From Asparagopsis taxiformis (Eukaryota; Rhodophyta; Florideophyceae; Bonnemaisoniales; Bonnemaisoniaceae): a stretch of 64,000 bases of DNA. Within the stretch, counting starts at the first letter, position 1; each line of letters starts with the position of its first letter. Positions 3,839 to 64,000 of this stretch are shown piece after piece. The notes under the pieces are model-generated. The model was given only the letters and a program-made list of their open reading frames with translations. It was not told the DNA's origin and ran no database searches. The translations under genes were made by a program, and so were the position numbers. Location: assembly GCA_030407315.1 (NCBI GenBank), contig JALQPE010001767.1, positions 31,380 to 95,379 of the forward strand, in the 5' to 3' direction.

Positions 3839-3839
3839 T

Positions 3840-3853: not shown

Positions 3854-3916
3854 AGAACCTTGTACCCTCTGGTAACTCTCCTTGGGAGAACTTCCCCTTT
3901 TCACATCATCTCCACG

Positions 3917-20272: not shown

Positions 20273-20284
20273 GCTGACAAAGAC

Positions 20285-43460: not shown

Positions 43461-44508
43461 CGCATCCATCACGGCGACCACTCTATTTTTCCTTGTCGGT
43501 CGACTCCAATTTCGTCTTTAATTTTTTCATCCTCTCGCTCACACCCCCTTCCTGTTGGTGCTCACCTCCCCCGTACTGTACCTCAAACACCCCCAATACC
43601 ACTCTAGCACGCATTTTCAGATACCTATCCCCGCTTCCACGGTGCACACCTCCATTCCATACCTACTTTTCTGCTCTACCGTACAGATTTCGTATAACCA
43701 GTCCTCATACTACCTCAGAATAGGGCAAAACACCCCCTATCTCCTCGACCATGCTCTCCCCCATCACCTTTGAAACGTATTGTTCTTCAGTACCCTCTCT
43801 CCTCTACCCTCAACCCCTCTCCTTCGCCCTCTACACAAACTTCCCCTGCAGCTTACTCTTCCAAAACCTCTCACTCCCCATCCCGTACCCGACCTGCTCC
43901 ACCCCTCCCTCCCTCAGCTGCTCCATGCCCCCACGCCATCCGCATCTTCGATACCGTATACACCACCACCACCGGCCCACGCTCCCGCACTGCGGGGTGG
44001 CTCCCCCGCCGTATCCCCAGAAACCTCCCCGCTCTGAAACACATATCAACCCCCCACTTCGCACCCTTCCTCCCACTCCCCTCCCTCCCCAAATACAATA
44101 AACCCCTTCTTCTCCATCACATCCCCACTCACCACAGCCAGAACAGACGCCACCCCCTCCCCTTCTTTCTCCTCACTTTCCTAAAAACCCCTCCTCTCGG
44201 CGCCTTCAACCGCACCCTCCTACGGTCCCACCTAAACACCTCCTCCGCCCTCACTACCCCAACACCCCGCAGCGTCTCCCCAATCCCCATAATATGCTTG
44301 TCGGCACTCCTCTCCGAATCACAATCCATTCTAAACCCGCACTCCGTACATTTCCACCTCCCCCTGTACCATCCCAAGATTCCATCCCCCCACAGAACAC
44401 ATCCTCATACCACAGAAGAATTTTCTTCCTCTCATACCTCATCCTTAAAACCTCCATCAGCTCCATGTAAATTTCGATGAAAATATTTTCTCTACTATGC
44501 AATCTCAA
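43411..44508 (-). pseudogene. Unrecognised decayed minus-strand gene (copy B)
   Basis: Counterpart of 5441-6504. Minus-strand pieces include one starting MRLHSRENIF and containing WKCTECGF. It differs from copy A by small insertions (for example an added stretch near 44400-44430) and frameshifts. The family is unknown. Proline-rich plus-strand frames here are composition artefacts. Confidence 0.35.
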
Positions 44509-44779
44509 ACATGTATGAGCCTATGCCTTTCCGCTTTGTCAACCCTGAATATTGGTACTCATGTATTCATAAAATAGGGCCACCCACATCCCTATCCCGT
44601 TCTGCAAGCTTTACAAACCACTAGACGCATACTCCACAACTATACAACAAACACTACTCGCTATTTCAGACGACGCGGTACACAAGTAGCGTAGTGTCAA
44701 CCTTCCGTGACGCCTTCCCTGATGCGTACAAGTGGGAAACACGTCTAGACGTATATCAGAACTGAGTGCGGGAATTTTC

Positions 44780-46195
44780 GGCACAGGAGATGCTGGGCCA
44801 CCAAATTGATTTTTCGGAAATTTTAGAATTTCTGGGCTGGCCAGCAATGCAATCGAGCTGGACATCCACCGGACGTCCATTTCAGGTTGGTCGCGAGAGG
44901 GTGGGGCGGGACCATGATGAAACAAGGACCAAGACCTTTCCCTGACGTGTTGAGCCTGAAATCGACCCTTCGTGAGACGCGATTTTGGCTTACAGTTGGT
45001 GCTAATAGAAGCCAGTGATAGCCCCCGATCGGGGCCGGCGGTCGGTTCCTGGGGCCGTTGTGGCCAAATTAGACACCCTGATTTGAATTAAAATTTGGGC
45101 TATTCTCAAAAACATGCACATGTGAACATGTTTTTGAGATGGGGGTGTGCCGTACGGCACAATCGACCGCCCAAATCGTTGATTTTTGCAAGATTTTTTG
45201 TGCCCGAAATTTTAGAATTTCTGGGCTGGCCAGCAGTGCATCTGAGCTGGACATCCACCGGACGTCCATTTCAGGTTGGTCGTGTGCTGCCTACATCCAC
45301 GCATTGCAGAAACTAAGCCAGCGGGTTCACTACTAATACAAAGTACACGGAATATGAGTAACGTGATAGGTGAGTAGTGTTTGTGTTGAGGGAGTAAGGC
45401 GGGACCATTATGAAACACGGAAGAAGATGCGTACCTAGCATAACTTAGGCTTGAAGCCTGGAATCGACCCATCTTTCGGCGCCATTTAGCCTCACAGTTA
45501 GTGCTTACAGAAGCCAGTGATGACCCCGCTCGGGGCGGCGGTCGGTTCCTGGGGCCGTTGTGGCCAAATTAGACACCCTGATTTGAATTAAAATTTGGGC
45601 TATTCTCAAAAACATGCACATGTGAACATGTTTTTGAGATGGGGGTGTGCCGTACGGCACAATCGACCGCCCAAATCGATGTTTTTTGCAATATTTTTCT
45701 GTGCCCGAAATTTTAGAATTTCTGGGCTGGCCAGCAATGCAATCGAGCTGGACATCCACCGGACGTCCATTTCAGGTTGGTCGTGAGAGAGCGGGGCGGG
45801 ACCATGATGGAACAAGGACCAAGACCTGTCCCTGGCGTATTGAGCCTGAAATTGACCCTTCGTCAGACGCCATTTAGCCTTACAGTTGGTGCTTACAGAA
45901 GCCAGTGATAGCCCCGATCGGGGCCGGTGGCCGGTGCCTGGGGCCGTTGTGGCCAAATTAGACACCCTGATTTGAATTAAAATTTGGGCTATTCTCAAAA
46001 ACATGCACATGTGAACATGTTTTTGAGATGGGGGTGTGCCGTACGGCACAATCGACCGCCCAAATCGATGTTTTTTGCAATATTTTTTTGTGCCCGAAAT
46101 TGTAGAATTTCTGGGCCGGCCAGGAATGCATCTGAGTTGGACATCCACCGGACGTCCATTTCAGGTGATCGTGTATCGTGCACGTCCAGCCATTA
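44780..46195 (+). repeat. R-unit array B (one partial and three core-bearing units)
   Basis: Tandem units of roughly 385-490 bases. Each core-bearing unit contains, in order: the 12-bp stem CTCAAAAACATG/CATGTTTTTGAG with CACATGTG in its loop, GTGCCGTACGGCAC, GAAATT...AATTTC, a GGCTGGCCAGC-like box, and CCGGACGTCC. A CCCCGATCGGGG-like palindrome separates units. Cores start near 45100, 45600 and 45990. The array lies between the decayed gene and the 3' end of the dioxygenase gene. Confidence 0.9.
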
Positions 46196-46440
46196 CCAGA
46201 AGCAAGTTGGCGATGAAGCACGTATAAACCCAATTGTTCTGCTATTTCTAGCATAGACCATCGAGTCTAGAGATGTGAGGGAATCGTCCTGGAATCATGC
46301 TCCAACCCACTAGGGAATGGACAATCTAGTTTGAAAGCATGGAACGGAAGTGCATTATAGTAGGTTCATAGATTGAAAGTGATAAAGGAGATGATTATAT
46401 TCTCGATAATTGTTTGCTAAAGTAGTTGTTGTTAAGATAT
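46196..46440. other. 3' flank of the dioxygenase gene, no gene seen
   Basis: Alignable to 7400-7608 in copy A, so part of the element; probably 3' untranslated sequence and terminator region of the minus-strand gene. Confidence 0.5.
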
Positions 46441-48585
46441 CTAGCCGTCGGAAAACTGTTCTTCCTCTTCGTCCTCACTATGATAGTGAACTAGATATCC
46501 AGGTTGTCCCGGCAGAAGAGGCACTACCGGGGCCACACTCGGTGTGTGCATTACATCCTTGCGAGGTTCTGTCGTCTTCATCCGCATCATTCGGAGCTGC
46601 CCTGTCTTCGGCCTACCATCTTTCTTGACCGGGATGGGAACAACTGTCTTGTGGCGAACATTGACAGGTGCCGGTTGACTTTGCCTTGCAGACCGGCGCG
46701 GAGCATTGGCGATGACTTCTTCTTCGAATCCCAACCGCCTGATGAAACCAAACGAAACATTGTCGGGAATCGGATACGACGCATTCCTGAAATACGTGTG
46801 ATACCTCGTTGTCGTGTGTGACACAACTCTGTCGACATGCCCTGCCCCGGCATGTTGTACATGGCCGTGACCGATGAAGACTGAACGTGGCGGAACGATT
46901 ACCTTCTTCAGCTTCATCGTCTTGGCGTACATATCTAATTCCAGCGCTTTGGAAAAGACGTACTTGTGGGACCCTGGACACACCCAGATAGGGAATGGGT
47001 CATCTCCGTTGGCAATAACAAAGTAACCCGGAAGTTGATCTTTGCGGTCGCGAGGAGGAACAGGGAAATCATTGTGTGGGACCTGCCGAGGACACCCCTT
47101 TCCCGTTATCAAAAACCGTCCCCCAGATGCCGGCATGACAAGTTTTTCTCCCGGTAAACCGCACTCCTCCAGCCCTGTCAGCCGGACAAGGATTCCCAAC
47201 CACACATCCAGCAGGGCTCGCCGCGTCACAAACTTGAACCGGTCGATATGCGTCTCATCGTTCTCGGCATAGTCAACCAGGCAGTGGCGCGTAGACGTGA
47301 AGCGAGCCCTCCCCTCATTCCGGTTCTTCTCGTCTGTTTCATCGTCCCCCGTATTGACAATGGGACTCCACAGCTGCCGGTTCCCAGGGTCCTTGTGCAC
47401 CTGCTCCCCCTCCCACGTTCCCAAAAAGTACCGAAACAATTCCTGGTTAGGAATTTCTTCCATGAGACCCAAGTCAAATGGGAACTTGTCCGACGCATCT
47501 AGGTAGCTTACATCCGCGAAATTGTGCATCACCGTATACCCTCGCTCGTTGATTTCCGTTCGGCAATTGTGGAAGTACGCCATACCAGTGCCGGCCTCAT
47601 ACGAATCCTTCCAGCTTGTAGACATTCGCGCAACCTGAGCGAAGTCCAGCCTCGAGGGTAGAAACGTCGATGTAGGCTCACACATCGCCTTGGCAGCCAT
47701 CTTCCACGCTGCGAAGAACATCGGATAGACGTGATCGATTTCGAATAGCACACGAGCCCGATGTTCTTCCGGAATATGCAGCCCCTCAAACACAGGGTCC
47801 ATCGCCACTTGCTTCAAATACCTCACCTCTCTGCCCTCCTCATCGATTTCCACACTCTCCAATAACAACCTGAGCTCAATCGGGGGCAGACAGCCAACCC
47901 TCACCGATGCGATGACATCCGCGGGACGCTGCGCCAGATGATGCCCTTCGGCTCGGTCTTCGAAATCGTCAGGAAGAGACGGCATACGGTCGTCGAAGAG
48001 GAGGTCGTCTTCAGAAGGAGAGTCACGAACGATGTAACCGTCTTCATCGACTTCCACTCCTTCCGGAACAGTGAATGTAATTGTCACTTCGCGGACCCCC
48101 TTGCTTTCGACTTGGCCCTCGTCTGCACCCTGTTTGTCTTCCTCGTCCGAAGCGGTATGGACAGATTCTTGGTTGGAGGGAGTCGCACCAGCACGTTGGT
48201 TATCTTGGGGGACAATCTCAACGGCAGAATCGGGGGAACGGGCGGAGTCTTCGTCAACCTCATCACCGGAAGCAGTGGCTTGTTGTTGATCGGTGGGTTT
48301 ATCAACAACGGCCTGCTCTTCTTCCCCGGCGGATTGTTGTACCACAACCGGCTCTTCTTCCTCGAGGCGTGTGCTCCCCGTCGAGCGAAGTCGCTGTGAA
48401 CGGCGGCGGATGCCATGCGAAGCAGGCTCATGTTCGACATTCCGCTGCTTCTTGTGAGTGAGTCTCACATTGGCAGCAGAAGGGCGGCGTTTGCGTCGAG
48501 CCTTAGTCTTCTTCTTCAATGTCGGATTGAAAAACTCTTTCAAGTTCGTTTCCAAATCCTGTAAACGCGTGGTTCTCCGTCGCAT
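46441..48585 (-). CDS. 2OG-Fe(II) dioxygenase with basic N-terminus
   Basis: 714 residues. The N-terminus is strongly basic (KKKTKARRKRRP at 24-35; more Arg/Lys to about 66), like a nuclear/DNA-binding tail, followed by an acidic linker (75-210) and a conserved domain (about 225-390). The C-terminal catalytic barrel carries the iron ligands H504-x-D506 (PHNDF) and H578 (VQHAG) and the likely 2-oxoglutarate-binding R594 (TTRYHTYF), with FPIWVCPGSH between them. These features define a double-stranded beta-helix 2-oxoglutarate/Fe(II) oxygenase of the phytanoyl/prolyl-hydroxylase type. I cannot place it in TET/JBP or AlkB with confidence. All catalytic residues are present and the frame is intact, unlike copy A. 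The ATG at 48585 overlaps the end of the ParB-like frame by 46 bases on the same strand. Substrate unknown; methylated DNA or histone is a hypothesis from the neighbours. Confidence 0.85.
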   Translation of the reverse strand: MRRRTTRLQDLETNLKEFFNPTLKKKTKARRKRRPSAANVRLTHKKQRNVEHEPASHGIRRRSQRLRSTGSTRLEEEEPVVVQQSAGEEEQAVVDKPTDQQQATASGDEVDEDSARSPDSAVEIVPQDNQRAGATPSNQESVHTASDEEDKQGADEGQVESKGVREVTITFTVPEGVEVDEDGYIVRDSPSEDDLLFDDRMPSLPDDFEDRAEGHHLAQRPADVIASVRVGCLPPIELRLLLESVEIDEEGREVRYLKQVAMDPVFEGLHIPEEHRARVLFEIDHVYPMFFAAWKMAAKAMCEPTSTFLPSRLDFAQVARMSTSWKDSYEAGTGMAYFHNCRTEINERGYTVMHNFADVSYLDASDKFPFDLGLMEEIPNQELFRYFLGTWEGEQVHKDPGNRQLWSPIVNTGDDETDEKNRNEGRARFTSTRHCLVDYAENDETHIDRFKFVTRRALLDVWLGILVRLTGLEECGLPGEKLVMPASGGRFLITGKGCPRQVPHNDFPVPPRDRKDQLPGYFVIANGDDPFPIWVCPGSHKYVFSKALELDMYAKTMKLKKVIVPPRSVFIGHGHVQHAGAGHVDRVVSHTTTRYHTYFRNASYPIPDNVSFGFIRRLGFEEEVIANAPRRSARQSQPAPVNVRHKTVVPIPVKKDGRPKTGQLRMMRMKTTEPRKDVMHTPSVAPVVPLLPGQPGYLVHYHSEDEEEEQFSDG

Positions 48586-50372
48586 TCGAACCTCACTGCT
48601 CCGGTCGTCCCTCTATACATTGCAATGGCATTGGTGAGATGCCATTGCAACTCCTTCGGCTGCTTAACCGACCCAATTGCCATCTCTGTGCTCAGAAATG
48701 ACTTGCGCATAATACTCTTTGGGCGCCCAAACGCAGCGTACAGAGAATTTGCTATTGCAGTCACGCGACGGACGTATGTATAAAAGTCGTTCACGTCAAA
48801 GCGTCCATCCGGACGTCCGCCATGAGCAGGGTTCAAGTACTCCGAAAGACCACGCAAGACGAAGACAAAGTTTTCTTCCAGCAACTCGCGCACTATCTTG
48901 TGGTCCAGGTGCGTTATCCCAATCTCGTTGCGGCGCTCGGAATTGTTCAGCTCACGCAACACGTCGTCGAGAACAGGATGCTTCAGCGTTGCTATAGCCA
49001 AACGCGTCCACCGCCGAGCCGTGTTCGTCGAATTCATCATCCCCATGAACTGCGCCTCGAACAATGTTCGGATGACATCAGACTCACGCAAGTCGCCAGC
49101 GTTTTCCACGTTGTTTGCAACAGCAATCGTACGGATGAACTGCTGGATGGACGACAAGATTCGAACCAGGGAGCGCTCCGTCAGTTGCGTCCCAGTCGTA
49201 TGGTTCGACTCTGCACTCTTGTGGATGATCTCATGAGGCTGGAGATCACTGTCGTCCTTGCGGCGAAGGTAGTACACATCCAGAGGCTGAGTAACCCAGC
49301 GCAAGCGGTTTGCCTCCTGTGGCAGCTTGGTTCTGTGCATACGGGTGAGGCGCGTGAAGTCATCCGCAATGCTATGCATAGCATTGAGACGATGCAGTCC
49401 GTCGATCACGGTCACGTTCGCATTGGCATGGAATTTGCCATTCTGGAACAGACGCGTGTCGGCGGACAAATGCGTGTTCTGCGACCTCAGCACCGTCACA
49501 GTGATACGCGAAGAGCTCACATACCCCACCGCCAACATATTGTTGCGCAGGTCCTCCACGTGGTCTTCTTTGACATCGCGAAGGGTCACGGCCGGTTCCA
49601 CTAGCTGCCTCACCAACACAGTCGCTCCTTCTCCGACGTAATCCGACGTCACAAACTTGGGCACCGTAATTTGCGTCCCCTGCTGCTCACGAATGCTTTC
49701 CGCCACCTCCGGTTCGTCGTCCACCTCGGTTACGTCCTGCGTAGTAGCTTCGGTGACGTTGGAGCGAGCAGGGTGCTTCGTGCCTCCACTGGAGGCTCTG
49801 GCAGAGCGAGCAGGGCGCTTCGTGCCTCCCGAAACCGGGACGGAGCGTGCTGGATGCTTCGTACCCCCCGAACCAGTGATTTCGCCTGCTGGACCGGTAC
49901 TGGGCATCCGTCCCGAGCTGGCCTGGTTCGTCGCTGCGTTGAAGTTTGACGCTGCAGCAGGGGTACGAATGTCGCTAGAGCCATCCTCCGCAGCGGGGCG
50001 CATCATCCGAGTATCCCAAGGGTAAAACGCCGCGGCGTATGCTCCACCCATCGTCTCCGGCGGTCCCTCGGCGCCATCAAACATGTACGGGAACGGGAGG
50101 TCCTTGAACTTGTCCTTAGTCGCAATGTTGCGCACGACGATATAGTCGGCCTCGTCGGTTTCCGGCAGCTTGTGGTTGTGCAGCGTGCGCGGAAGGCCAA
50201 CATCGCCACCAGCAGTGCTCACCGAAGCCGTCCCAATATGCACAGCCGCACCGTCCACGTCCGCAAACAAGTCGACATCGACGCCGCGCTTGAGTCCGCG
50301 CGACTCCGCTGACGCGCTCACTTGATCGCCGCAAACCGTTGAAAACAAACTGCTGAAATGCGTATCCGCCAT
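48540..50372 (-). CDS. ParB-like nuclear protein
   Basis: Open from 50555. The ATG at 50372 is preferred because its context (ACAACCATGG) is a strong eukaryotic start and the upstream residues look random; this gives 610 residues. Numbered from 50555: an N-terminal module at about 95-177 (DLFADV..., TLHNHKLP, LPFPYMFDGAEGPPETMGG) that resembles the C-terminal tail of the element-2 methyltransferase; three repeats of SGGTKxPARS at about 228-265, basic and perhaps DNA-contacting; then a ParB-like domain with VTVIDGLHRLNAMH (381-394) and a helical C-terminal domain. In elements 1 and 2 the ParB-like domain is fused to a methyltransferase; here it stands alone, immediately upstream of the dioxygenase, with which its frame overlaps (48540-48585). 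It could be the DNA-targeting or nucleotide-switch partner of the dioxygenase or of the MTase-SET protein. Confidence 0.75.
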   Translation of the reverse strand: MADTHFSSLFSTVCGDQVSASAESRGLKRGVDVDLFADVDGAAVHIGTASVSTAGGDVGLPRTLHNHKLPETDEADYIVVRNIATKDKFKDLPFPYMFDGAEGPPETMGGAYAAAFYPWDTRMMRPAAEDGSSDIRTPAAASNFNAATNQASSGRMPSTGPAGEITGSGGTKHPARSVPVSGGTKRPARSARASSGGTKHPARSNVTEATTQDVTEVDDEPEVAESIREQQGTQITVPKFVTSDYVGEGATVLVRQLVEPAVTLRDVKEDHVEDLRNNMLAVGYVSSSRITVTVLRSQNTHLSADTRLFQNGKFHANANVTVIDGLHRLNAMHSIADDFTRLTRMHRTKLPQEANRLRWVTQPLDVYYLRRKDDSDLQPHEIIHKSAESNHTTGTQLTERSLVRILSSIQQFIRTIAVANNVENAGDLRESDVIRTLFEAQFMGMMNSTNTARRWTRLAIATLKHPVLDDVLRELNNSERRNEIGITHLDHKIVRELLEENFVFVLRGLSEYLNPAHGGRPDGRFDVNDFYTYVRRVTAIANSLYAAFGRPKSIMRKSFLSTEMAIGSVKQPKELQWHLTNAIAMYRGTTGAVRFECDGEPRVYRIWKRT

Positions 50373-50654
50373 GGTTGTTGAGTTGGAAAGGAAAAGAGAT
50401 GGTTGACGTTGACGTATTCGAGTGATGTGGATGGTATGTTTCACGTTAAGTTGAAGAATGGTCGTGAACGCCAATCGCTGGAAATAATAACACAATACAA
50501 CCGAAATTTTGTTAGGTACACACCTATCGTGACCGCTGGAATGCAAGACAGGCAATCGAGATGTGAGTGTCCGTTCAGAACGGGCCCGAGTCGGGCTCTC
50601 GAAACCTGACGAGGTGGCGTGAAGCAGGCAGTGTCCTTGATGTGTAATGTGTTA
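50373..50654. promoter_or_regulatory. Upstream region of the ParB-like gene
   Basis: Leader and promoter region between the preferred ATG and the outer edge of R array C. No clear TATA box. The edge sequence ACAGCTGTCAAGCTAGG (50660-50676) recurs inverted upstream of the gene at 57624. Confidence 0.4.
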
Positions 50655-51835
50655 AAATTACAGCTGTCAAGCTAGGCGGCTTTTGGGGCGGCTGCGAGCA
50701 CCCCTTTATCCGGGGAACACCCTGATTTGAGTTAAAATTTGGGCTATTCTCAAAAACATGCACATGTGAACATGTTTTTGAGATGGGGGTGTGCCGTACG
50801 GCACAATCGACCCGCCCAAATCGTTGATTTTTGCAAGATTTTTTGTGCCCGAAATTTTAGAATTTCTGGGCTGGCCAGCAGTGCATCTGAGATGGACATC
50901 CACCGGACGTCCATTTCAGGTTGGTCGTGTGCTGCCTACATCCACGCATTGCAGCAACTAAGCAGGCGGGTTCACTACTAATATAAAGTGCACGGAATAT
51001 GAGTAACGTGATGGGTGAGTAGTGTTTGTGTTGAGGGAGTAAGGCGGGACCATGATGAAACACGGAAGAAGATTTCTCCCTAGCATAACTTAGGCTTGAA
51101 GCCTGCAATCGGCCCATCTTCCGGCGCCATTTAGCCTCACAGTTAGTGCTTACAGAAGCCAGTGATGACCCCGCTCGGGGCGGCGGCCGGTTCCTGGGGC
51201 CGTTGTGGCCAAATTAGACACCCTGATTTGAATTAAAATTTGGGCTATTCTCAAAAACATGCACATGTGAACATGTTTTTGAAATGGGGGTGTGCCGTAC
51301 GGCACAAACGACCCGCTGAAATCGTTGATTTTTTACAATTTTTTTGTGCCCGAAATTTTAGAATTTCCGGGCTGGCCAGCAGTGCAATCGAGCTGGACAT
51401 CCACCGGACGTGCATTTCAGGTTGGTCGTGAGAGAGTGGGGTGGGACCATGATGGAACAAGGACCAAGACCTGTCCCTGGCGTATTGAGCCTGAAATTGA
51501 CCCTTTGTCAGACGCCATTTAGCCTTACAGTTAGTGCTTACAGAAGCCAGTGACAACCCCACTCGGGGCGGCGGTCGGTTCCTGGGGCCGTTGTGGCCAA
51601 ATTAGACACCCTGATTTGAATTAAAATTTGGGCTATTCTCAAAAACATGCACATGTGAACATGTTTTTGAGATGGGGGTGTGCCGTACGGCACAATCGAC
51701 CCGCTGAAATCGATGTTTTTTGCAATATTTTTTCTGCCCTGAATTGTAGAATTTCTGGGCTGGACAGCAATGCAACTGAGCTGGACATCCACCGGGCGTC
51801 CATTTCAACTTGGTCTTGTATTTTGCATCTGCACG
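50655..51835 (+). repeat. R-unit array C (three units, plus orientation)
   Basis: Cores near 50741, 51243 and 51631, with the same order of palindromes as array B. The outer edge reads TTACAGCTGTCAAGCTAGG, then GCGAGCACCCCT and CCGG before the first unit. The same edge, inverted, closes array D near 57400-57440. Arrays C and D therefore form an imperfect inverted repeat around the MTase-SET gene. Confidence 0.85.
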
Positions 51836-52035
51836 CATAACAGCAACCAAGCAGTCAGGTTCACTGCTCGGACGAAGTGCACCTAGAGTGTGAACGATTG
51901 GTTTTTGACAGGCGAGTACTGCCGAATAGGTTTCACCCTGGACTAATGGTGGCTGGACATTCTGCATTATATGATATACTTCAACTCTGGAACGTAGCTT
52001 TATTTGTAGTCGAAATGAAAACATCTTTCGTGACC

Positions 52036-55000
52036 CTAATTCCATGCTCTAAACGCTGTCCCATAATGAACGTAGAGCTCCTGCCCCGGACGGATATCGC
52101 GGATTGCACGTACTACAATGATCTTCGGATTTTCTAGGTCCTTCGCCTTGAGCTTCTTCCCCGTCGAACCGCTGCTGTAGTTCTCGACAAACTCGACGTT
52201 GGCCATCCGCCTGGTGTCTTCCGCCGGAGTGTCCTCACCTCGCAAATACCGCGGGTCGTTGATGAACTGCGCCGAACAGAACGGAGCCGGAACAATCCAA
52301 ATTGGATGCTCGATGTTTTCGTCGTCCTCCGCTGTTGCATACAGCTTGATAGCATACATCAAGAATGTTTCCTTCGTTATCGCCATGTGACCCTCTCCGT
52401 ACGCGAACCTCATCGACTCCTTGCTCATATCAGAGTACACAACAGTTCCGTAGTATGCACATACTTCGTCACCAACATTAAATGTCTGTTCAGCGAAGAG
52501 CCCTCTTCCTGCATTTGGATGCTTAATCAGCGATGGTCGAACGCTCAATTTTTTCGCAACACAATCGTGTGCCCGCATCACGCGAGGGTTTTCAGTTTGC
52601 AACCAGCGGCGCAGGGAAGGTGGCCAATAATGTACCGGTTTCTCCATGTGCTCGCGCGACGCAATCGACTCTGGGCACAGCTGCCAGAGGTACTGCCGAA
52701 TATATTTCGGGAACCTCTGGTACAGGGGAAGGCCAGGTGGGGGTTCGATGATCCTGCGTTCCCTCTGCGTACGCATCGTGACAGAGGGGGACGCCAAGAA
52801 CTTCTCAGCACTCTGTTTCGCTTCTGTCGTGACCCTCATGTCAGTGTTGTTTGAAAGAATTACACGTGACATGACTGCACACAGCTTTGGAAGCGATCGT
52901 ACCACACACAATTTGTCCATGTCACTGCCGACGAAAACACGGTGCTCAGGCAAGCTCATAGCTGCTTTTCCCGTTGCGAAAGTGCCAGAGAATGGATCGA
53001 CAACAATATCACCAGGCTGTGAATGCTGGCTGATCAACTCCATCATGAGAGCGACGCTCTTCTGCTCTGCACGAACTCTGACCGTAGCACCGGTTGTGCT
53101 CCTTGTTCGCCACACCATCTCATTCGAATCGATGGCGGGCATATTGATGGTGACGTTGCACCACGCCGGGTACGTGCCGTCCATGTATCCGTGGTTCCTA
53201 TAGGCCACCATCTCGCTTCCGGTCTTGAACGGAACACCTCGCTTCCAGAAGTGGATAGCGACCTCTGCCATGTTCATGCGTTGGTACCTCTTCCGCCCCG
53301 GCATTTGATAGAGGTGCCCAGGTAGTCGGACAAACAACAGAGGTACCTCGTCAACGAAGAAAACTGAATTCCGAACGACGTCCTCCTCGTCCTCCTCCTC
53401 ATCCGCACTTTCTTCGCCACTGTGCTGCGATGCTTCGGAGTCCGAATTCATGGACGTAACCTCTTCTTCATCCGACCCGTCATCACTGGCAGCAGTATCG
53501 GTTGGGCCTTCTGACTGCGGTCCTTTGTACGTTTCCAAGTAATGGAACCATTCGTAGAACTGCAAAACCGAGCAGAACACGATGCCGTGGCCACCGGGGC
53601 GCAACAGCTCGTCAAACACTTCGATGCTAGCCTGCATATCTTCTGCAGTTAGCCTGTCGTACGAAGAGTTGGAATCGTTCCTCTTACGACGAACATTGTA
53701 GGGCGGATCAGTCAGAATGAGCTGAACGTTGCCCGTGATGGGCACGTGTTCTCGGCTCTCGTCGGCACTGACCAAATCTTCGAAAGGGACGTCGTACACC
53801 CGGCAATACTGACTCATTTTCGAAAGAAAGTCCTTTGCGAGAGCCTGCCCTTCACTTTCCTGCTCTTCTGTCGCATGGGGTGACGGTGACGGGGGAGACG
53901 GCCCTTGGGCAGTAAGACTGGTCCTCCCAGGTCCAAGTTGAAGCCTGGTTGTGTGTCTTGTCGACGGAACCAAACCTCTCCCTCCTGTGTTGCGACGAGT
54001 GGGAGTGTCATCAACCGGCTTGGGGACCTTTTCTGCGTCCGCGGCTTGTGGTGCCGGGCGGAGGACAGCCATAACGTCTTCGTCGAGGGTGTCAAAATAC
54101 GCTGGCAGCTTGTCCGGATTTCCGCTTGAGAAGTATATTTCCAGTGCCCCCCAGCGGTCGGACTCCGGCCAGGTGTACAGGTCCGGGTTGACGATAAGAA
54201 ACTGCAACCGGTCGAAGAACTTCCTCACAAGGTCCCTAAATGCACTGTGCTGCGCACTGGTTCTTGTCTCTACTTTTCCACCATATCCATCAGGATGAGA
54301 TAGGGGAGCTTTGTTGTGGTAGAGATCTAGCTTCTGCTCCATCGGTGCGAATAGACCTTCATCGAGCACGTCAAACCAATGCTCACTGCTGTCGAAAATG
54401 ATGTACGGCGCCATCAACTCTTCGAAGCTGGAAAACTTTGCGGCGTAGGCCACATCGGTCCAAGCATGGTATAAAACTTGAACCACGTAACAAGCTCGAT
54501 TAGTGCTTTTCCGATGGGCTGGGACGCGTGCGGCTTCGTTCCCCTCTTCGGCCGCATCTCCTATTCGGCGACGCGGCAGGTTCTTGTTGTGATTTCGGAT
54601 GATAGACAACGCTTGGAAATACATCAATACCTCGAACGTTTCCGGTGGAGCAAGAACGAAGGCGCTTGGTTCCCCGCGCTGCGGCGCCTGTAGTGGCGAA
54701 GGAAGCATGTTACATCCAATAAGGAAGGTCTGCGGCACGATCCCAGAAAGGATGCAGTGCTCAACCCATTGCCCGATACGCTCATCCTGTCTTGAAAACT
54801 CGGCAATGGGTAATGCCAGACGAACAATCTGCTTGGCTCGCTCAACGTTCATCTCTGCCATGACGATTTCGGCAACATCCGCCTCGACTCCAGCATTCTT
54901 CGAACGACCGCTGAAGGACATGCTGAGTCGACCTTGCAGCGCCACAAATTGTTCTTCCGTGCCCTGCGCAACCCAAGCGCCAAGGTCCGCGTATGTGAAA

Positions 55001-55227
55001 CCTCCCGGCTTGTCCGTCAAGTCTGCGAAACTTGAGTGGGCGAATAAATCCAGCAAGAGGCGGAGGAAGTCTTTGCCAGCGAGAGTAGTTTCGCGGGCGG
55101 CGCGACCTACGTTTCGACGTGTACCCATGTCACTAGAATCCTCCCAAGGGCTAGCGGGTTCGCGCAGAATTGGCACGGTTGCGTCGTCAACGATCGGATT
55201 GCTGTTGCGCCTGCGCTTATTCGTCAT
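52036..55227 (-). CDS. DNA methyltransferase-SET domain fusion protein
   Basis: Open from 55485. The ATG at 55227 (MTNKRRRNSNPI) is the likely start, giving 1,063 residues; earlier codons look like leader. Numbered from 55485: a large helical N-terminal domain (about 130-480) of unknown type; a Pro/Thr-rich linker; a DNA amino-methyltransferase with motif IV LTDPPY (591-596), an acidic insert (660-705), and motif I VVDPFSGTFATG (828-839). This is again the beta-class order, with N6-adenine or N4-cytosine as target. The last 160 residues are a SET domain: GRGLFAEQTF (993-1002), YYGTVVY (1011-1017), FINDPRYL (1074-1081), ANVEFVE (1095-1101) and RPGQELYVHYG (1132-1142). SET domains methylate lysines, typically on histones. 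Both catalytic centres look intact, apart from the SET motif FINDPR where FINHSC is usual. The gene sits between inverted R-unit arrays. A DNA and histone writer in one polypeptide is unusual. Confidence 0.9.
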   Translation of the reverse strand: MTNKRRRNSNPIVDDATVPILREPASPWEDSSDMGTRRNVGRAARETTLAGKDFLRLLLDLFAHSSFADLTDKPGGFTYADLGAWVAQGTEEQFVALQGRLSMSFSGRSKNAGVEADVAEIVMAEMNVERAKQIVRLALPIAEFSRQDERIGQWVEHCILSGIVPQTFLIGCNMLPSPLQAPQRGEPSAFVLAPPETFEVLMYFQALSIIRNHNKNLPRRRIGDAAEEGNEAARVPAHRKSTNRACYVVQVLYHAWTDVAYAAKFSSFEELMAPYIIFDSSEHWFDVLDEGLFAPMEQKLDLYHNKAPLSHPDGYGGKVETRTSAQHSAFRDLVRKFFDRLQFLIVNPDLYTWPESDRWGALEIYFSSGNPDKLPAYFDTLDEDVMAVLRPAPQAADAEKVPKPVDDTPTRRNTGGRGLVPSTRHTTRLQLGPGRTSLTAQGPSPPSPSPHATEEQESEGQALAKDFLSKMSQYCRVYDVPFEDLVSADESREHVPITGNVQLILTDPPYNVRRKRNDSNSSYDRLTAEDMQASIEVFDELLRPGGHGIVFCSVLQFYEWFHYLETYKGPQSEGPTDTAASDDGSDEEEVTSMNSDSEASQHSGEESADEEEDEEDVVRNSVFFVDEVPLLFVRLPGHLYQMPGRKRYQRMNMAEVAIHFWKRGVPFKTGSEMVAYRNHGYMDGTYPAWCNVTINMPAIDSNEMVWRTRSTTGATVRVRAEQKSVALMMELISQHSQPGDIVVDPFSGTFATGKAAMSLPEHRVFVGSDMDKLCVVRSLPKLCAVMSRVILSNNTDMRVTTEAKQSAEKFLASPSVTMRTQRERRIIEPPPGLPLYQRFPKYIRQYLWQLCPESIASREHMEKPVHYWPPSLRRWLQTENPRVMRAHDCVAKKLSVRPSLIKHPNAGRGLFAEQTFNVGDEVCAYYGTVVYSDMSKESMRFAYGEGHMAITKETFLMYAIKLYATAEDDENIEHPIWIVPAPFCSAQFINDPRYLRGEDTPAEDTRRMANVEFVENYSSGSTGKKLKAKDLENPKIIVVRAIRDIRPGQELYVHYGTAFRAWN

Positions 55228-55540
55228 AATGGAATGAGTGGAAAATTCGGTACAGGATGGCGACCGCTCGGCGAGACAGTCAAATTTGACGACGTATCTC
55301 GTGACGTTTGCACTCTTTCGTGAGGAACACTGGTTGATATCGAACGGAACAGAGTATACGGGTACACAGCACTGGAAAGGTCTTGAAACCCGTAACCGGT
55401 GTAGGTAATAAGTTGTGACGGATACGTGGTAGAGAAAAAATTTTAAAAAGATTGTGATTCCCTGCCTTTGAGTGTTGTACTGCAAGGCCGCCAGTCACAT
55501 AGGTTGACACAGGTGCCTCACGCTTACCAGGTGAGCGACA
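55228..55540. promoter_or_regulatory. Upstream region of the MTase-SET gene
   Basis: Leader and promoter between the likely ATG and the first inverted R unit. The frame is open into it but the encoded residues look non-coding. No clear core promoter motif. Confidence 0.4.
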
Positions 55541-57450
55541 TCCGGACGGCCACTGGACGTGGGGATGTCCGACTCAGATGCATTGCTGGCCAGCCCAGAA
55601 ATTCTACAATTTCGGGCAGAAAAAATATTGCAAAAAACATCGATTTCGGCGGTCGATTGTGCCGTACGGCACACCCCCATCTCAAAAACATGTTCACATG
55701 TGCATGTTTTTGAGAATAGCCCAAATTTTAATTCAAAGCAGGATGCAGATATTCGTCTTCTACCATTGTCAGAACACATTCGTATAACCACATTTGGAGA
55801 ACCTGAGCCCAGAGCTATCGGTTTTGGCGGGAGCTAAGCCATATCTCATATAATCAGTAACTACTTCCCGCCAGCTGAGTGGTGGAACCCCTGCTATTTC
55901 TACCAACGAGACATACGGGGTGTCAACTCGGCAATCGTATATGATTTGGGTGCTAAATTTATTCAAGAGACGAATGGGCTTCGAAAAGGAGCCCAACTAC
56001 GTCTACTTGTGATCCATGGGTATAGGACTATTCTATTCTTCTCCAGGCTTCCACCGTAGCCGCCTCCTCCGCCTCCGTTAATGGAAAGAATATCCGAACC
56101 GCACCTCAACATGTTCTTCATGTGATCCATGGGTACTGACATCTCACATGCTCTCCAGGCTTCCACCGTAGCCGCCTCCTCCGCCTCCGTTAATGGCAAC
56201 AATATCCAAACTGGACCTCTACATGTTTTTCTTGTGATCCATGGGTACTGACATCTCACATGTTCTCCAGGCTTCCTCCAAAGCCGCCACCTCCACCTCC
56301 GTTAATGGAAAGAATACCCGAACCGCAGGCTTCCTCCATAGCCGCCTCCACCTCCGTTAATGGCAAAAACATCTCACCGGGCTGAAAACGGACGGACGAC
56401 ATTGGGTTCGTTCCGCTGCGTAGACGTTTAGAATCTTGTTAGAAAAAAGTAAACGAAAGAGAATGACATCTCATCTCTGTCGCAATATGTTCCATTTTCA
56501 AGTTCTCGGGTTCCACACCCATCAAGGCCTGGATCGAACCCTCTTCGATGGATAGGACAAATAGTGGAAGGCTTTTAAGCCTGTGACCAAGCGGCTATTG
56601 ATTGGTTGGAGGAAGGAAATTACAGAGGAAATTTAGCTGAGTACGGTGCTCGCGATAGCTGTTAGGTTAAAGTCAAATATGTGTTTCGATTATTTTTCGT
56701 ACGAAAATGTCTTGCAAAAGACGATGCTTTGTCGTTCTCCTGGAGGGAGTCCGTTGCATTGCACTCAATTCGAGAGCATCGTCATGAAGGAGAGGATTCT
56801 TTCTGCTTGTTAGAATCGGTTTAGAGCACATAGCTAATGCATTACTGGCCAGCCCAGAAATTGTAGAATTTCGGGCAGCAAAAATATTGTAAAAAACCTT
56901 GATTTGGGCGGCCGATTGTGCCGTACGGCACACCCCCATTTCAAAAACATGTTCACATGTGCATGTTTTTGAGAATAGCCCAAATTTTAATTCAAATCAG
57001 GGTGTCTAATTTGGCCACAACGGCCCCAGGAACCGACCGCCGCCCCGAGCGGGGTCATCACTGGCTTCTGTAAGCACCAACTGTAAGGCTAAATGGCGTC
57101 TGACGAAGGGTCAATTTCAGGCTCAATACGCCAGGGACAGGTCTTGGTCCTTGTTCCATCATGGTCCCGCCCCGCTCTCTCACGACCAACCTGAAATGGA
57201 CGTCCGGTGGATGTCCAGCTCGATTGCATTGCTGGCCAGCCCAGAAATTCTAAAATTTCGGGCACAAAAAAAATATTGCAAAAAACATCGATTTGGGCGG
57301 TCGATTGTGCCGTACGGCACACCCCCATCTCAAAAACATGTTCACATGTGCATGTTTTTGAGAATAGCCCAAATTTTAATTCAAATCAGGACGTCTTCCG
57401 GACATAGGGGTGCTCGCGGCCTAGCTCGACAGCTGTAATTGTACCTCATT
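55540..57450 (-). repeat. R-unit array D (three units, minus orientation) with a 1.1-kb spacer
   Basis: Cores at about 55655-55720, 56918-56980 and 57308-57369, all inverted relative to array C. The first unit is separated from the others by about 1.1 kb that contains the 112-bp minisatellite at 56009-56360 and no recognised gene. The outer edge (57405-57440) matches the outer edge of array C in inverse orientation (GAGCACCCCT, then CTAGCTCGACAGCTGTAAT on the plus strand in reverse). Confidence 0.85.
56009..56360. repeat. 112-bp minisatellite
   Basis: GTGATCCATGGGTA recurs at about 56009, 56122 and 56234, a period near 112 bases, each followed by CCAGGCTTCC and a CCGCCTCC-rich block ending CCGTTAATGG. 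A shorter fourth partial unit follows near 56320. The minus strand could encode Gly-rich stretches (INGGGGGGYGGSLE), but the period is not a multiple of three, so coding is unlikely. Confidence 0.85.
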
Positions 57451-57623
57451 AAATACTGTTGATGACTGCCTACCGTATACAATCTGGGCTGTTGGCGTAT
57501 TATCCGGTACTTGACCTGACCTGAACGTTCATCGCAGACCGTTGTGGTTACCGACACTATACAGCAATCTTTTTTGTATCTCGTGCAACTCAATCGTTCC
57601 ATCGCTTCCGGGAAAGCTTCATT

Positions 57624-59908
57624 ATGCCGCCGCGTATTGCGAAGAAAGCTCCAAAGCCTCCGGGCCTCCAGAAAACCGGTCAGCAGCTGCTGTATCGAGT
57701 GCCCGACAATCCCGTGCGAAGAAGCGGTCTGGGCCTACCGGCAGCATTGAACCGCGGTCCGGTAGTCGCAAGACGGACCGGCGCAGAACTGGGGATCCGC
57801 AGCGAGAAAGTGAGGAAGGAGGAACGGCGCGGAGAGAGATGGGGCTTGACCGAGGCAAGCGTGCTCGCAGGGACAGTGAACATCATGATGATGACATGAT
57901 AGTGGCTCAAAACATGTTGGAATTGCGGCAGAGTGCTATGGCAAAGGTAGTTCCTCCCGGGTTGGCAGATGCGGAGGTGCTGCAGACGGAGTCCCAGCCG
58001 GGGGTTCCCGAGACACTGGAGGCTGTGACCCCCACTGCGCCAACTATGCCGAGTACATCAGCCCCAGCAGGTAATGCAGTCAGGGACCCGAGGATAGCGG
58101 CAAGGGATGTTGTTTCTGAGCAACGTTCACAGGATGCCAACTATCATCGGCGGTCAGGTGGTACTGAGGGGAGAGAGCAGCCGGAGTGCGGGCCTCGTCA
58201 CAACAGACTGTCATTGGTGCCAAATATGCGCGTAACGCCCCGCGACGTCAGGCTATTGGCGATGGAGGACATCATATTCCCGATAGCGTGGGAGATGGGG
58301 GGACGGTGAGGGCAGAGAGGTTGCATCCGCCGGAATCCATCGATTTAATGGCGAGTCGCATCAATGCGCAGAAGAAGAAGATCGCGGAGCTGGAAAAAAA
58401 AAGTGTTTAGCCAGGACATAGCAAACAAGGCGCTCACCACGGAGATTGTTGCGTTGGAGGCTAAGGTGAAGACTCTGCAGGCGGAAAATGCCAGCCTTAC
58501 TGCAATTGCGAGAACAGGTAGAATCAGTGATCACGGTGGCGGTAAGTCGAAAATACAGAAAGCCATTCCTGTGAAATACCTTGGAGTTCTTAGGGCGGTT
58601 GAGGAAAACCTGACAAAGTGGTGCAAGAACGAGACTATGGAGCTGGACCCTATAGCGGAACAAACGCAGAGACGTTGGACTGGACGTACCATCGAGGTAG
58701 AGCCGGTAGAAGGGGCACTTTGGAGCGAAAACGGTGTAGGATATATTGCTACCCCTCCGGGCTATATCATCAAGAATCTGCAGTGGTATACACCTTCGTA
58801 CAGGGACGAGAGTGATCTGCTGAATGACTTGGTGCGACACGTACTGCGTCAAAGTCCGTGGTGTGATGTGTTTTCCGATGAGGAGCAGCGTGTGTGCTGT
58901 CAAGAGGCTGTGGCGGGGAGCAAGGAATTGAAAGTGAAGGTGACGCAGAAACTGTCCGACGTGATGAGTGCACGGAAGCGTAATGCGAGGGACAGATTGT
59001 TCGGTTCGCTGGGGTACACGAAATTAATGTCTAGATGCACGATGCTGACGACGCGAGCTGAGATGGACGAGCGAGAGGAACAAAAGCGCGAAGCGTCTGA
59101 GAAGCTTTTGAAACGGGAAAGTAACGGTGATTTGGATATGGGGAGGTGGCGAACGGCACCGTTCTCAGAGCTGCGATACAGCAAAGGCTTGGTTCCTGAC
59201 AGCTTCGAAATGGAAGTGAATGGTGATGCATGGTTTAACAACCGAGTAGCTGTGAATGTGCTGGACATCTTCAGGGGTTATTCGATACGACCAGAACAAG
59301 TAATGGACATAGAGACGAGCATACTAACGCTGGCGCGCCTGGATGCTTGGCTAGTGACTACTGTGGAGTGTTTGGATGAACCGAAGGGGAAAGGAGGTGC
59401 ACGGCAGAAGGAGTTTACAAGGCGGTACAGTCAATATGTGGGGGTAGCTTTTCAGCAATTAGTTGGTATGGTGGTGTACTGCATGTCTTGTCTCCAAGGC
59501 TCGCAAGCAAGGGAAGAAACGGACGTTGTCGAGAGCGAACAGCGGACTAGTGCACAGTCACGGCATGTGTTTGCAAGCCGTACTGTGACGAGAGAGGCTG
59601 TTGAAGTGTGGCAAAGCGGAGAGGGGTCTGGAATTGTTCATGTCGTTGATGATGTAAACCGCTGCTCATCACTTGTTCTAGTGTCCGAGGATTGGATTCA
59701 ATCGCATATTACGTCAAACCTCGGTGCTGTAATGGATTGTGTGATTGCGCAAGGACTAATTGGCGCAGAACTTTTCGTCGTTGACCCATATGCTGGACAC
59801 CTGACTGCAAACCTGAATGTCGAAATCAATGCCCCACAGTATGGGGGCATGGAGCGGCGCCATGCAGCCACTGCTGATAACGGTTTTGGCGTAATGGAGG
59901 ATGGTTGA
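57624..59908 (+). pseudogene. Unrecognised coiled-coil protein gene, frameshifted
   Basis: One gene appears to span three frames. The start could be the ATG at 57624 (MPPRIAKKAPKPP, basic). The 57700-58300 part encodes an Arg-rich, polar stretch (GKRARRDSEHHDDD). The frame then shifts at the G6 run near 58296 into PPESIDLMASRINAQKKKIAELEKK, and shifts again at the A9 run near 58394-58402 into FSQDIANKALTTEIVALEAK, which together make a continuous heptad coiled coil. The remaining 450 or so residues to 59908 (WRTAPFSELRYSKGLVPDSF; VDDVNRCSSLVLVSEDW) form a globular domain I do not recognise. Both shifts are at homopolymers, so they may be assembly errors or real decay. It lies head-to-head with array D and tail-to-tail with the transposase gene. 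Confidence 0.5.
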
Positions 59909-59985
59909 AATTAGTGCAGTAAATGTGACGTTGACTAGAAGGTTTATCATGTAGTACATTATCAATAGAGTGCTGCGATTTAGAT

Positions 59986-62900
59986 TTATTCTTCTTCATT
60001 ATCATCTGTGAATTGGTAATCAGTGTTGGTGTAGAAGCGGTTGAGATAGAAACGGTGGTCCGACCAGTGCATTTGTTTCGTAAATGGCTTGACTGGAAAG
60101 TTACTTCGTACGATGTGCACGGTGCCAGATATAGTAGATGCAGGAATGAGGTCAAACCAAGGACCACCTGCACTGTGGGATGCAGTGTCATTGCTGTCAA
60201 CGGATCCGTTGTCCGGGTCCCATGTGGACCACTTTAAACAAATGCACCCAAGTGATTTTTCCACAGCGGTTTTTGGGGCAAAGCAGGTCATATACTGAAC
60301 GAAAGCGAGTTCTACAGGTTGAAACAGGTTTGGAGACTGCAGGCGTACCAGTGCCAGGACGCGCCCTACCCATATGGTTCTGTAGTCATCGGCAGTTCCG
60401 GAGATGACGACAAAGGAGTACTGCGATCTCTTTGCGGGGCCGAACGATGAAGTTGCAAAGACGCGCTGCTGCTTGTGCCTCGACACGTTTGTGGGGCGAA
60501 GCATGCCACTGTGCGGGTCAAAGTCGTCGGCATCTGGGACGTACCCTCCCATGACGTAGGCGGACTTTACCACGGTGACGGAAATGTCCATGTCATGTAT
60601 TGGAGGGCCTTCTGCCGTGGCGCGCAGTCTAGCGAGGGTGAGGAACGCTTGTGCAGCTGTGTCACCGAGTTGCTGGAATAGCGTTATGGTGCCAGACGGG
60701 AACGAGGAGTTGTGCAGCGGCAAAAGAGTGGCAGGATCGGGCTGTCCGTCGATATCTGCAACGAGGAGGGTTGCATCGGGCAGCAGGGAGGCAAAGTCGT
60801 GCAGTGCAACGGTGAATCCGTCGCGAACGAGTACTGCACCGTCTGTGGGCGATATCATGCGTGCGTTCCCAATGTGTTCGATGGGCGAGTATGACCAGTT
60901 GGAGTGGCCAAGGAGAATTCCATGTGGCGAATAGTCTCTTCCATGGCTGTGGAGCGCCTTCGAGAGGTTTTCCTATAACTCTGTTTGAACAGAAGATGCG
61001 AGTGTTCGTAGGGGCCTGCATCAATGTGTTCCAGGGCGCCATATCTCTGCAAGTCACCGGGAAGATGGTCTAGAAGATGGAACTTGAAAGTTTTGAGACC
61101 TGTGGTGTGGAATGGGCCGAGGGTGGAGAGCATTGATTGTTTGAAATAGGAAATGGAGTTCTGGAGGCTTTCTAGTTCGGCGGCAGTCCAGTGCTTGATG
61201 CGACCGCGTTTCATGACCCATGCGACGAGGTCAGAGTATTGCGTGCAGATGGAAGTGAGGGGGGCTGTATCTACTTCGTCACAGCATGTGTCAATGAATG
61301 CTGCGATGAAAGGGAACACCATGTCGACATGGTGATAGTCTTTGGCTGCGAGCATGCCGCGTATGCCGTCTCCGTGAAGAGGCCGTTCAAATTGGTGCCC
61401 TTCTCACCCTTGGAGAAGTCGACATGAAGACCGGTGATGTAGTAGTCGCGTTCGATAGCGGACAGAATGCTGTTTGAGCCGGCGAGGATGGATTTTTTCA
61501 CCTTCTTGAAGGTGCGAGGTGTCCCGGAATGGGAGGCAGTGGTGGTGAGGTCTGGGGAGCTGAGGCGGTGGACAATGCACTGTTTGATGAGCTTTGAGAT
61601 GCCGAGGTGGAGATTGTGCAGAGGCTCGAAGGAGAAAATGTTGTAGGGGTCTAGGGGACTGTTGGTGGGTAAAAGAGCGGTCGATTCGAGGACAGAGTGT
61701 TGTTCGAGGAGGGAGAGAGCTTCGAGCGGAGCAGTTGTATGCTCCTGAGCGCTCTCTTGGCGTGCAGAGCGTGTATCATCGAGGGAGCGGGGCTGGTGTG
61801 GCGCGCTGGATTCAAGTTGAGTGGCGGGGATGTAGCAGCGGTGGCAGGGATGTGTGGTGGTAGTGCTGTTGCGAGTGCATGAGAGCTCTTTGGCCTCTGG
61901 AAAGTCGCAGCAATAATTGGCTAGGATGGGAAAGCATTGGCGGGCAGTTGCAGTGGAGTCTGTGCAGGGGAACCCGGAAGAGAACGCGGTGGATAGGGAC
62001 GAAAACACTTTTTCGAGTGCTTTATGAAGAATATCAATTTTGCGAGCGCGACTAGCAGAACTAGAGGTTGTCGGCATTTCATCACCGAACAAGGCGTTGG
62101 ACGAAGGGTTAACAATGTACGGAAGATACCCGACGATGGTGAGGCCGGTACGGATGCAGTGGCGACGGAGGGGGGCGGAGAAGTTGAGCAGTGTGACGTG
62201 TATGGGGTATGCGACGATTGCGGAGCTCTTGAGGCTTGTGCTGCTCTTGTCGGAGTACACTTGGAGGAGGCCGGCAAAGGAGGAAGCGGTGGGATCATTT
62301 TCCTCTGCCCATACGACCTGTGGATCTTCCGAGAGCTGCACGCGCTGTCTAGTAACCTGGTGCAGCGTTTTCGCGAATTCTGTGTGTAGGGGATGAGAAA
62401 TATTGCGGTGCCGTCTGGGGCGGTCTGTGGGGAGGGGTGGAAGAGAGTATTTTGGTCGTTAGCCAGTGCTAACTGCCTGCGGAGCATGTCGACTGGGTCG
62501 CGGAGGTACAGCTGTGCCGAGTACTTACCAGTTTTGTCTGGAATGATGTGGCTCTTGTAACCTTCGGTGCGGAAATGTGTTTCGACCATGGAAGCGGTAA
62601 CGTGGCGACATTCTTCTACGGTGCGAACGGCGCTGTTGAACTTTTCTAGGGAGAATGCGGGGTCTTGTAGGATGGTGATGACTTCGCTCACGCGGCCAGC
62701 GCCGGCCTTGTACTCGAGGGTTGTGAGACTGGCGGCGAGGGATTGCACGAGGAGGTCTGCGCGGAGGGGGTTGAGGTTGGTGGCAGTGAAGCGTCACAGG
62801 GTGAGTCGCTGGAGGAAGCACGACCAGATTCTGGGTCTGGGGAGCTGGGTTGCGGGGAATCATGGTCGCCGTTTCGAGCAGGCTCATGGGTGACGGCAGG

Positions 62901-63022
62901 GACACGAGCGTTGTTGAAATGTTGGGGAGAGGGGTGAAACGGTAGCGACACGTTCGCTCATGCAGCGCGAGCGCATAAGCATCTACGCAGTAGTAGAAGC
63001 ACCCTTCATACTTGCATTCCAT
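59986..63022 (-). pseudogene. Plavaka/CACTA-like transposase, frameshifted
   Basis: Minus-strand pieces in shifting frames read as one protein. N-terminus MECKYEGCFYYCVDAYALAL with C-x4-C and H-x4-C residues (zinc-finger-like); Ser/Pro linker; IIPDKTGKYSAQLYLRDPVD; VWAEENDPTASSFAGLLQVY, followed by a central core with PILANYCCDFPEAKELSC and HPCHRCYIP; FEPLHNLHLGISKLI; HLLDHLPGDLQRYGALEHID and YEHSHLLFKQSY; and a C-terminal part with TIWVGRVLALV and DHRFYLNRFY. The order and several motifs (CDxPE, HxxHLGI, YEHSH, WVGRVL) fit Plavaka-type transposases of the CACTA group as I know them. Single-base shifts are clear near 61370 and 60908, with another near 62350-62450. It is therefore inactive as it stands, or the sequence has errors. 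It is the only transposase candidate in copy B. Confidence 0.6.
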
Positions 63023-63616: not shown

Positions 63617-63654
63617 GTACGTGCGCGAATCTTGATCAAGATTCGCGCACGTAC
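63617..63654. repeat. Perfect 38-bp palindrome
   Basis: GTACGTGCGCGAATCTTGA (63617-63635) followed directly by its exact reverse complement. No spacer. It has the same arm length (19) as the palindrome at 20285-20322 but a different sequence. Confidence 0.95.
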
Positions 63655-63680
63655 CTTCGTTCCATCCTCTACCCTCGAGG

Positions 63681-63866: not shown

Positions 63867-64000
63867 GTTGTGTAGATGATGCAGGAATGTGATGACGGAA
63901 GGTAAGTTCATTGAGTGCCAAGATTGCTTTGCGAAGATATGGACTGCTGACTATGATTATTGTTAATTGCAAGGTTTTTGGATCATGGGTTTGTATTGTG

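Follow-up and report, generated by a model that had tools for sequence, protein, structure and literature searches.

Three kinds of modifying protein have already been described separately on transposons: amino-methyltransferases (MTases) tied to ParB-like domains, SET proteins and TET/JBP dioxygenases (PMC12477816, PMC12730594). Such proteins bear on how eukaryotic transposons overcome host silencing and on whether prokaryote-type writers of N6-methyladenine (6mA) or N4-methylcytosine (4mC) have real roles in eukaryotic chromatin. In the present work a 64,000-nucleotide stretch of DNA from the red alga Asparagopsis taxiformis (contig JALQPE010001767.1, positions 31,380 to 95,379; hereafter the window) was analysed. 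It contains part of a giant transposon with a Plavaka transposase, which carries a gene, MTase-SET, for a single protein with a DNA amino-MTase domain and a SET domain, and beside it a gene that combines a ParB-like domain with a dioxygenase.

In Sola1-1_Ec32 of Ectocarpus and in reported green and red algal transposons an amino-MTase (4mC or 6mA) is likewise transposon-borne and tied to a ParB-like domain, with a proposed role in binding and modifying the element that carries it (PMC12477816). There the ParB domain is fused to the MTase, with neither SET nor dioxygenase found by the terms searched in that source (PMC12477816); in the present element SET is the fusion partner of the MTase and a dioxygenase that of the ParB-like domain, and the transposase is of the Plavaka family. 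HarbingerS and MuDR transposons of Phytophthora have likewise captured a SET histone-methyltransferase gene, although the available text mentions no DNA MTase joined to it (PMC12730594). Fungal DNA transposons, including Plavaka, carry a 2-oxoglutarate (2OG) dioxygenase of the TET/JBP type with a proposed anti-silencing role; unlike these, the dioxygenase described here is PhyH-like by predicted fold and is fused to a ParB-like domain (PMC12730594). The cargo named for the giant Plavaka-flanked repeats of Amoebidium consists of tyrosine recombinases, and the terms 'SET domain' and 'ParB' are absent from the available text (PMC11244446). Bdelloid N4CMT combines an amino-MTase with a chromodomain, which reads rather than writes histone marks, has an SPPY motif, and is described as a bacterial capture and not as a transposon gene (PMC8885841). 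Methyltransferases are also reported in Mariner elements of viruses (PMC3627910). SETMAR likewise has a SET domain joined to a transposon-derived DNA-binding protein, the mariner transposase, but is a primate gene for which the available description names no DNA methylase. Among phage proteins, the best PHROGs family of all three MTases in the window was phrog_67 (phage DNA methyltransferases), with no SET match in that search.

The first-pass annotation had considered the system undescribed. For the fusion this agrees with the literature searched (subscription papers and Repbase lay outside its coverage), in which neither an MTase-SET nor a ParB-dioxygenase fusion was found; it does not hold for the three component types, each of which is published. 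The MTase-SET fusion is therefore new, relative to that literature, within the transposon-borne epigenetic accessory proteins. We tentatively read the element as a giant Plavaka-family transposon bearing a self-directed, anti-silencing chromatin-marking kit of two fused proteins, a reading that is possible but falls short of probable.

The MTase-SET protein

The first-pass annotation had placed both methyltransferase domains in a single frame, and this was confirmed by the presence of the motifs it quoted in an uninterrupted open reading frame (ORF) at 52036-55485 of the reverse strand, with its ATG at 55227 (Table 1). Both Pfam profiles scored above their curated cut-offs, N6_N4_Mtase (PF01555) with 57 bits (3.5e-15, cut-off 26.7) and SET with 29.5 bits (cut-off 22.4), and one unbroken protein holds both domains. 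The order of the MTase motifs is permuted, with DPPYN at residue 507 preceding DPFSGTF at 744, as in the beta type.

The AlphaFold2 (AF2) model of the 1063 residues had a mean predicted local distance difference test (pLDDT) score of 81, and both domains matched solved structures. A Rossmann MTase fold was found in the predicted MTase domain. The earlier claim depended on a SET fold in the C-terminal part, and this fold was present there in the AF2 model, in Foldseek matches of the full-length model to MLL1 and SUV420H1 (3.2e-5 to 4.2e-5, probability 1.00) and in a profile match to KMT2C (1.7e-6). Both domains are predicted to be active methyltransferases. DPPY is the motif of bacterial N6A-MTases and SPPY that of most N4C-MTases in the available account (PMC8885841); the DPPY motif, a hint only, makes adenine-N6 the most likely target base rather than 4mC, and histones are the putative substrate of the SET domain.

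Table 1. Features of the giant transposon in the window (window positions; residues are those of MTase-SET).
Feature	Position	Strand	Remarks
Form A giant transposon, window part	43169..64000	.	left terminus 43169; right terminus ~1.9 kb past the window/contig end
Left terminal inverted repeat ACGTCTGTGTTCTCGGAAATGGACGCGGACGTCCA	43169..43203	+	33/35 match to inverted right end, copies C503 and C436
Left array	44817..46182	+	3 full copies of 195-nt palindrome unit (45074, 45574, 45963); length varies between element copies
ParB-dioxygenase gene	46441..50372	-	window ORFs 48540-50372 (ParB part) and 46441-48585 (2OG-Fe dioxygenase part)
Middle array	50645..51882	+	3 copies (50718, 51219, 51607); between both genes
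MTase-SET gene	52036..55227	-	1063 aa; domain profiles, relatives, copy comparison
SET domain, residues 907-1056	52060..52509	-	PF00856 1.1e-6; Foldseek 3s8p 3.8e-5, 6u9m 3.2e-5
Beta-class amino-MTase domain, residues 501-772	52912..53727	-	acidic insert 572-612 of low confidence
N-terminal helical domain, residues 35-392	54052..55125	-	AF2 helices, mostly high pLDDT
Right array	55554..57451	-	3 inverted copies (55554, 56837, 57197); upstream of MTase-SET start
Uncharacterised gene	57542..59908	+	two ORFs in window; one 761-aa ORF in copy C503
Plavaka transposase region	59986..63022	-	several overlapping window ORFs; PF18759 3e-24

Relatives and origin of the fusion

The first-pass annotation had proposed to look for the same fusion in other genomes. 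A search of the public protein set with MTase-SET residues 470-1063 returned 54 relatives, 42 of which keep all four SET features checked. DPP[YF] was retained in 51 and motif I in 53, and within the SET domain the tyrosine was kept in 44 and the later asparagine in 51. Adjacent genes fused by chance or by assembly are refuted as an explanation: all 40 scored gene copies in the genome (of 4565 first-look candidates) are in frame, full-length and free of internal stops at 100% (rounded) identity, and chance joining is excluded because the 54 relatives mostly keep the catalytic motifs. The distances of the two domains co-vary (r 0.71 over 43 complete members, a value reached in none of 2000 permutations; 0.68 without P0001), as expected if the domains had travelled together.

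Two of the relatives, P0053 and P0054, are ParB-MTases without SET, and P0044 also lacks SET. A profile of the helical domain matched the middle of P0053 (22.1 bits) and P0054 (9.0 bits, best domain) and did not match the ParB-MTases of two further elements in the window, E1 and E2, in the same search, which covered five sequences so that its E-values are not comparable with others. The ancestor of MTase-SET may thus have been a ParB-helical-MTase protein in which ParB was lost and SET acquired. The MTase tree was rooted at its midpoint with three of ten phage outgroups usable, so that architecture counts as heavily as the tree for the order of ParB-MTase and MTase-SET.

Carriage of the fusion by viruses was considered and is unsupported. 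In IMG/VR at least 21 loci were found, none of which, among the matches listed, extends past residue 811, so that none includes SET; two motif patterns gave no matches. Going by their names and lengths alone, the viral proteins listed as fold matches each seem to correspond to a single half of the fusion. A SET pattern had no match in prokaryote genomes, although this pattern is insensitive and catches only 13 of the 54 known relatives.

The giant transposon and its copies

The location of MTase-SET on a mobile element, also part of the first-pass annotation, was borne out by the termini, the transposase and the number of copies. Flanks were taken for ten copies, one of them rearranged (C476) and one with only 326 bases on its 3' side (C933). 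In the six copies with a readable left flank, similarity ends at 43162-43169 and the flanking sequence differs from copy to copy; the shared letters start with ACGTCTG at 43169. Four further left ends were also read. The right terminus was read in C503 and C436, the two copies read to both ends, giving full lengths of 23157 and 23387 bp and 35-bp inverted repeats. Plavaka elements duplicate 2-3 bp of their target. On one reading of the boundary, which is ambiguous by one base, TA stands beside both ends in both of these copies. A ~43 bp repeat near the right terminus (L048/L051) seems to vary in copy number between them.

The PF18759 transposase profile scored 86.3 bits in the window and 87.1 bits (1.7e-24) in C503, against a cut-off of 26.3, and the transposase is an open frame of 1036 aa in all three other copies examined. 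PlavakaA termini are given as TGT..ACA and those of PlavakaB as CATCA..TGATG in the text available (PMC12730594); the element, with ACGTCTG...CAGACGT, was filed in neither because its termini match neither. In the window copy the transposase and the 761-aa gene are broken up while MTase-SET is intact. Neither window ORF of the 761-aa gene reached a Pfam cut-off, and for the second of them PHROGs gave no match below 0.1. The window element is inserted in a Copia pol ORF (41220-43388), and a second, nested copy in a gag-like ORF (3839-5419; profile score 24.2 bits, cut-off 24.1). Both copies begin inside retrotransposon ORFs, indicating at least two insertions of the giant element in retrotransposons.

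Copies were counted over the 141.5-Mb assembly, in which the window ends with contig C1645, as 41-base sites with up to three mismatches; the reversed control gave 0 for each. There were 1319 matches for the left end, 950 for SET, 964 for MTase, 905 for the dioxygenase and 988 for the transposase. MTase-SET is therefore carried by a mobile element of about 23 kb with hundreds of site matches. If the approximately 950 sites were complete copies they would add up to some 22 Mb, 15% of the assembly, as an upper estimate.

Two arrangements of the element were seen when the first 100 listed places per site were typed (95 SET, 90 transposase and 54 dioxygenase places). A transposase site lay within 11 kb of 59 of the 95 typed SET sites. 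In 50 of these 59, form B, it is 3' of SET on the opposite strand, about 4.87 kb away; seven have the window arrangement, form A, and two are arranged otherwise. Where the dioxygenase could be placed too there were 18 form B, 4 form A and 3 other. The MTase-SET segment accordingly occurs in both orientations within the element, which is what inversion between inverted arrays would give and may have arisen that way, with misassembly as the alternative.

Five copies (C68, C476, C480, C495 and C503), among them the form A copies C68, C495 and C503, are identical in base sequence to the window across 1063 aligned codons and are two codons longer. Three of the four form B copies have open frames of 1066-1067 codons with 21-24 base differences and a ratio of replacement to silent change (pN/pS) of 0.22-0.29, a value based on about ten replacement changes per copy. 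The five coding-identical copies and these ratios make the forms look like young subfamilies under purifying selection. The fourth form B copy, L053, is truncated and has diverged further (pN/pS 0.39); its domain-wise counts of replacement and silent changes (N-terminal 53.5/34.5, MTase 2.0/1.0, SET 1.0/6.0) were not used because of the truncation and the small numbers.

These copies bear on a self-limiting role, in which the element would silence itself as heterochromatin and so lower the damage to its host. A parallel is offered by bdelloids, where the available text proposes that the 4mC amino-MTase and SETDB1 variants cooperate on transposons (PMC8885841). The roughly 950 site matches and the coding-identical copies indicate recent strong activity instead, and the motif here is DPPY rather than SPPY, which leaves self-silencing quite unlikely.

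The ParB-dioxygenase gene

The first-pass annotation had placed a dioxygenase and a ParB-like protein beside MTase-SET. They do adjoin it, but as one protein and not two: the ORFs are halves of one gene lying in different frames in the window copy, and five of the other eight copies, as well as eight of ten relatives, have the halves joined. Around the junction, each of the eight copies is set apart from the window by a single gap. Together with the five copies in one frame, this indicates that the window copy bears a length change, by mutation or sequence error. An intron between the two ORFs, for which 60 GT-AG pairs are possible, was ruled out by the read-through copies. Relatives of the two genes lie on equally long contigs (P0022 and P0058, 15726; P0031 and P0060, 7918), and a dioxygenase relative occurs in the red alga Gracilaria domingensis.

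The iron triad HxD...H and the distal arginine of the dioxygenase (H866, D868, H941 and R957 in P0055 numbering) are invariant or nearly so in the alignment of the family (A2). The ParB part carries DGLHR, a DGxHR box, and matched P0053 in BLASTP at 1e-4. In the five-sequence search its family profile reached 13.5 bits in E1 and 11.3 bits in E2. The DndB profile remained below cut-off and was seen for E1 only (17.1, cut-off 29.1). A protein search with the ParB part found nothing with a query that includes low-complexity stretches.

Palindrome arrays

The two genes are flanked and separated by arrays of a 195-nt unit, of which there are nine in the window element (one matching over 168 nt) and one in the second copy. 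Each unit contains the perfect palindrome TGTGCCGTACGGCACA together with CAAAAACATG-N10-CATGTTTTTG, without mismatch in ten of ten units, where shuffles lead one to expect 0.02 and 0.01. Among the ten units, variation is seen in three of the 83 core columns and in 37 of the 91 columns of the right flank. A Fisher test of the core against 72 right-flank columns, 25 of them variable, gave P 4e-7; the limits of the core were drawn once the alignment had been inspected. For the two genes, the nearest unit begins some 327 and 346 bases upstream of the start. The palindrome with its adjacent ten bases had 7330 matches in the genome and the reversed control 0. By inference, the palindromes make the strongest candidate target of ParB.

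Palindromes, and arrays placed near both ends and between the genes, would also suit a role in transposition or copy control, in which DNA marks at the ends or arrays let the transposase or the replication machinery tell new copies from old and SET acts on the transposase or another non-histone protein. The number of SET-site matches fits such a role as well. The array palindromes are absent from the left terminus, however, and both profile and fold place the SET domain nearest to histone methyltransferases, although fold does not fix the substrate; copy control is therefore considered somewhat unlikely.

A possible role in host chromatin

For the anti-silencing role favoured above, protein A would comprise the helical domain, the beta-class DNA amino-MTase and the SET lysine methyltransferase, and protein B the ParB-like domain and a PhyH-like 2OG/Fe dioxygenase. 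Protein B, and perhaps also the helical domain of A, would recognise the palindrome pair in the arrays flanking both genes; protein A would be brought or confined to the arrays and would methylate the DNA of the element and its nucleosomes. The element would in this way be kept transcriptionally and transpositionally permissive against host silencing, while the dioxygenase would remove or edit marks. A wider version is unlikely, in which a dual writer and eraser would set joint DNA and histone marks, the ParB-dioxygenase would nucleate on parS-like palindrome arrays, the MTase-SET module would be invertible or recombination-switched, and the element would form an autonomous chromatin domain.

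Several observations weigh against the anti-silencing role. The canonical SET motif RFINH carries NH, which is absent in the window protein and replaced by ND there and in 41 of the 54 relatives. At least one SET feature is missing in 12 of the 54: besides the three proteins without SET, P0028 and P0040 are each short of one residue, and the motif is degraded in P0035, P0039, P0041, P0042, P0046, P0051 and P0052. The last six retain the MTase with the SET catalytic motifs lost, so that SET is dispensable in some relatives; five of these six cluster in the MTase tree at 100/97, and at 87/37 with P0039 added. On the side of protein B, no Pfam ParB profile matches the ParB-dioxygenase in the window or in C503, and the BLASTP matches of the ParB part to E1 (0.18) and P0054 (0.58) are not significant. 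Its fold lists are filled by the dioxygenase half, and the ParB fold is putative. The listed fold matches of the dioxygenase homologue P0055 are PhyH-type and other 2OG enzymes rather than TET/JBP; a TET/JBP identity is thus unsupported, though absence from such a list excludes nothing. The pN/pS values draw on few changes, and gene conversion between young repeats could account for part of the conservation of the palindromes.

The SET changes would also fit one or both domains being catalytically dead and serving as DNA- or nucleosome-binding readers or scaffolds. The cysteines that follow a SET domain form the post-SET region, and there are none beyond the final YG of MTase-SET. The S-adenosylmethionine and catalytic motifs of the MTase are almost invariant, and the SET tyrosine and later asparagine persist in most relatives, making loss of catalysis very unlikely.

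The presence of a DNA methylase and SET in one deeply conserved chain, with about 950 SET-site matches and a candidate targeting site, suggests that the element comes equipped with the means to mark chromatin itself. Native long-read sequencing and a single recombinant protein would allow a direct test of whether DNA and histone marks are written jointly, and the fusion could furnish a programmable dual epigenetic writer.

Other elements in the window

E1 is a transposon at 7913-19243 with a 1974-bp inverted repeat (99.9-100%) and a 4-bp target duplication, TGAA, inserted into the dioxygenase gene of the second copy of the giant element. It carries the ParB-MTase fusion (10495-13155) and, on the other strand, a DUF7869 protein (14750-16948). 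E2 (31698-37504) holds a second ParB-MTase (34502-37504) and DUF7869 pair beside part of the dioxygenase gene of that second copy; a scan with 12-base seeds detected no inverted repeats of 20 nt or longer in E2. Both pairs look like the known Sola-type case, and Sola elements make 4-bp target duplications, fitting the TGAA of E1. A 10.65-kb insertion at 19918-30567 has CCCAGTAAGA inverted ends and a 3-bp CAC duplication. It contains pieces of host-like genes, named by eye as P-loop/NB-ARC-like and HEAT-repeat-like, and is perhaps a gene-capturing transposon.

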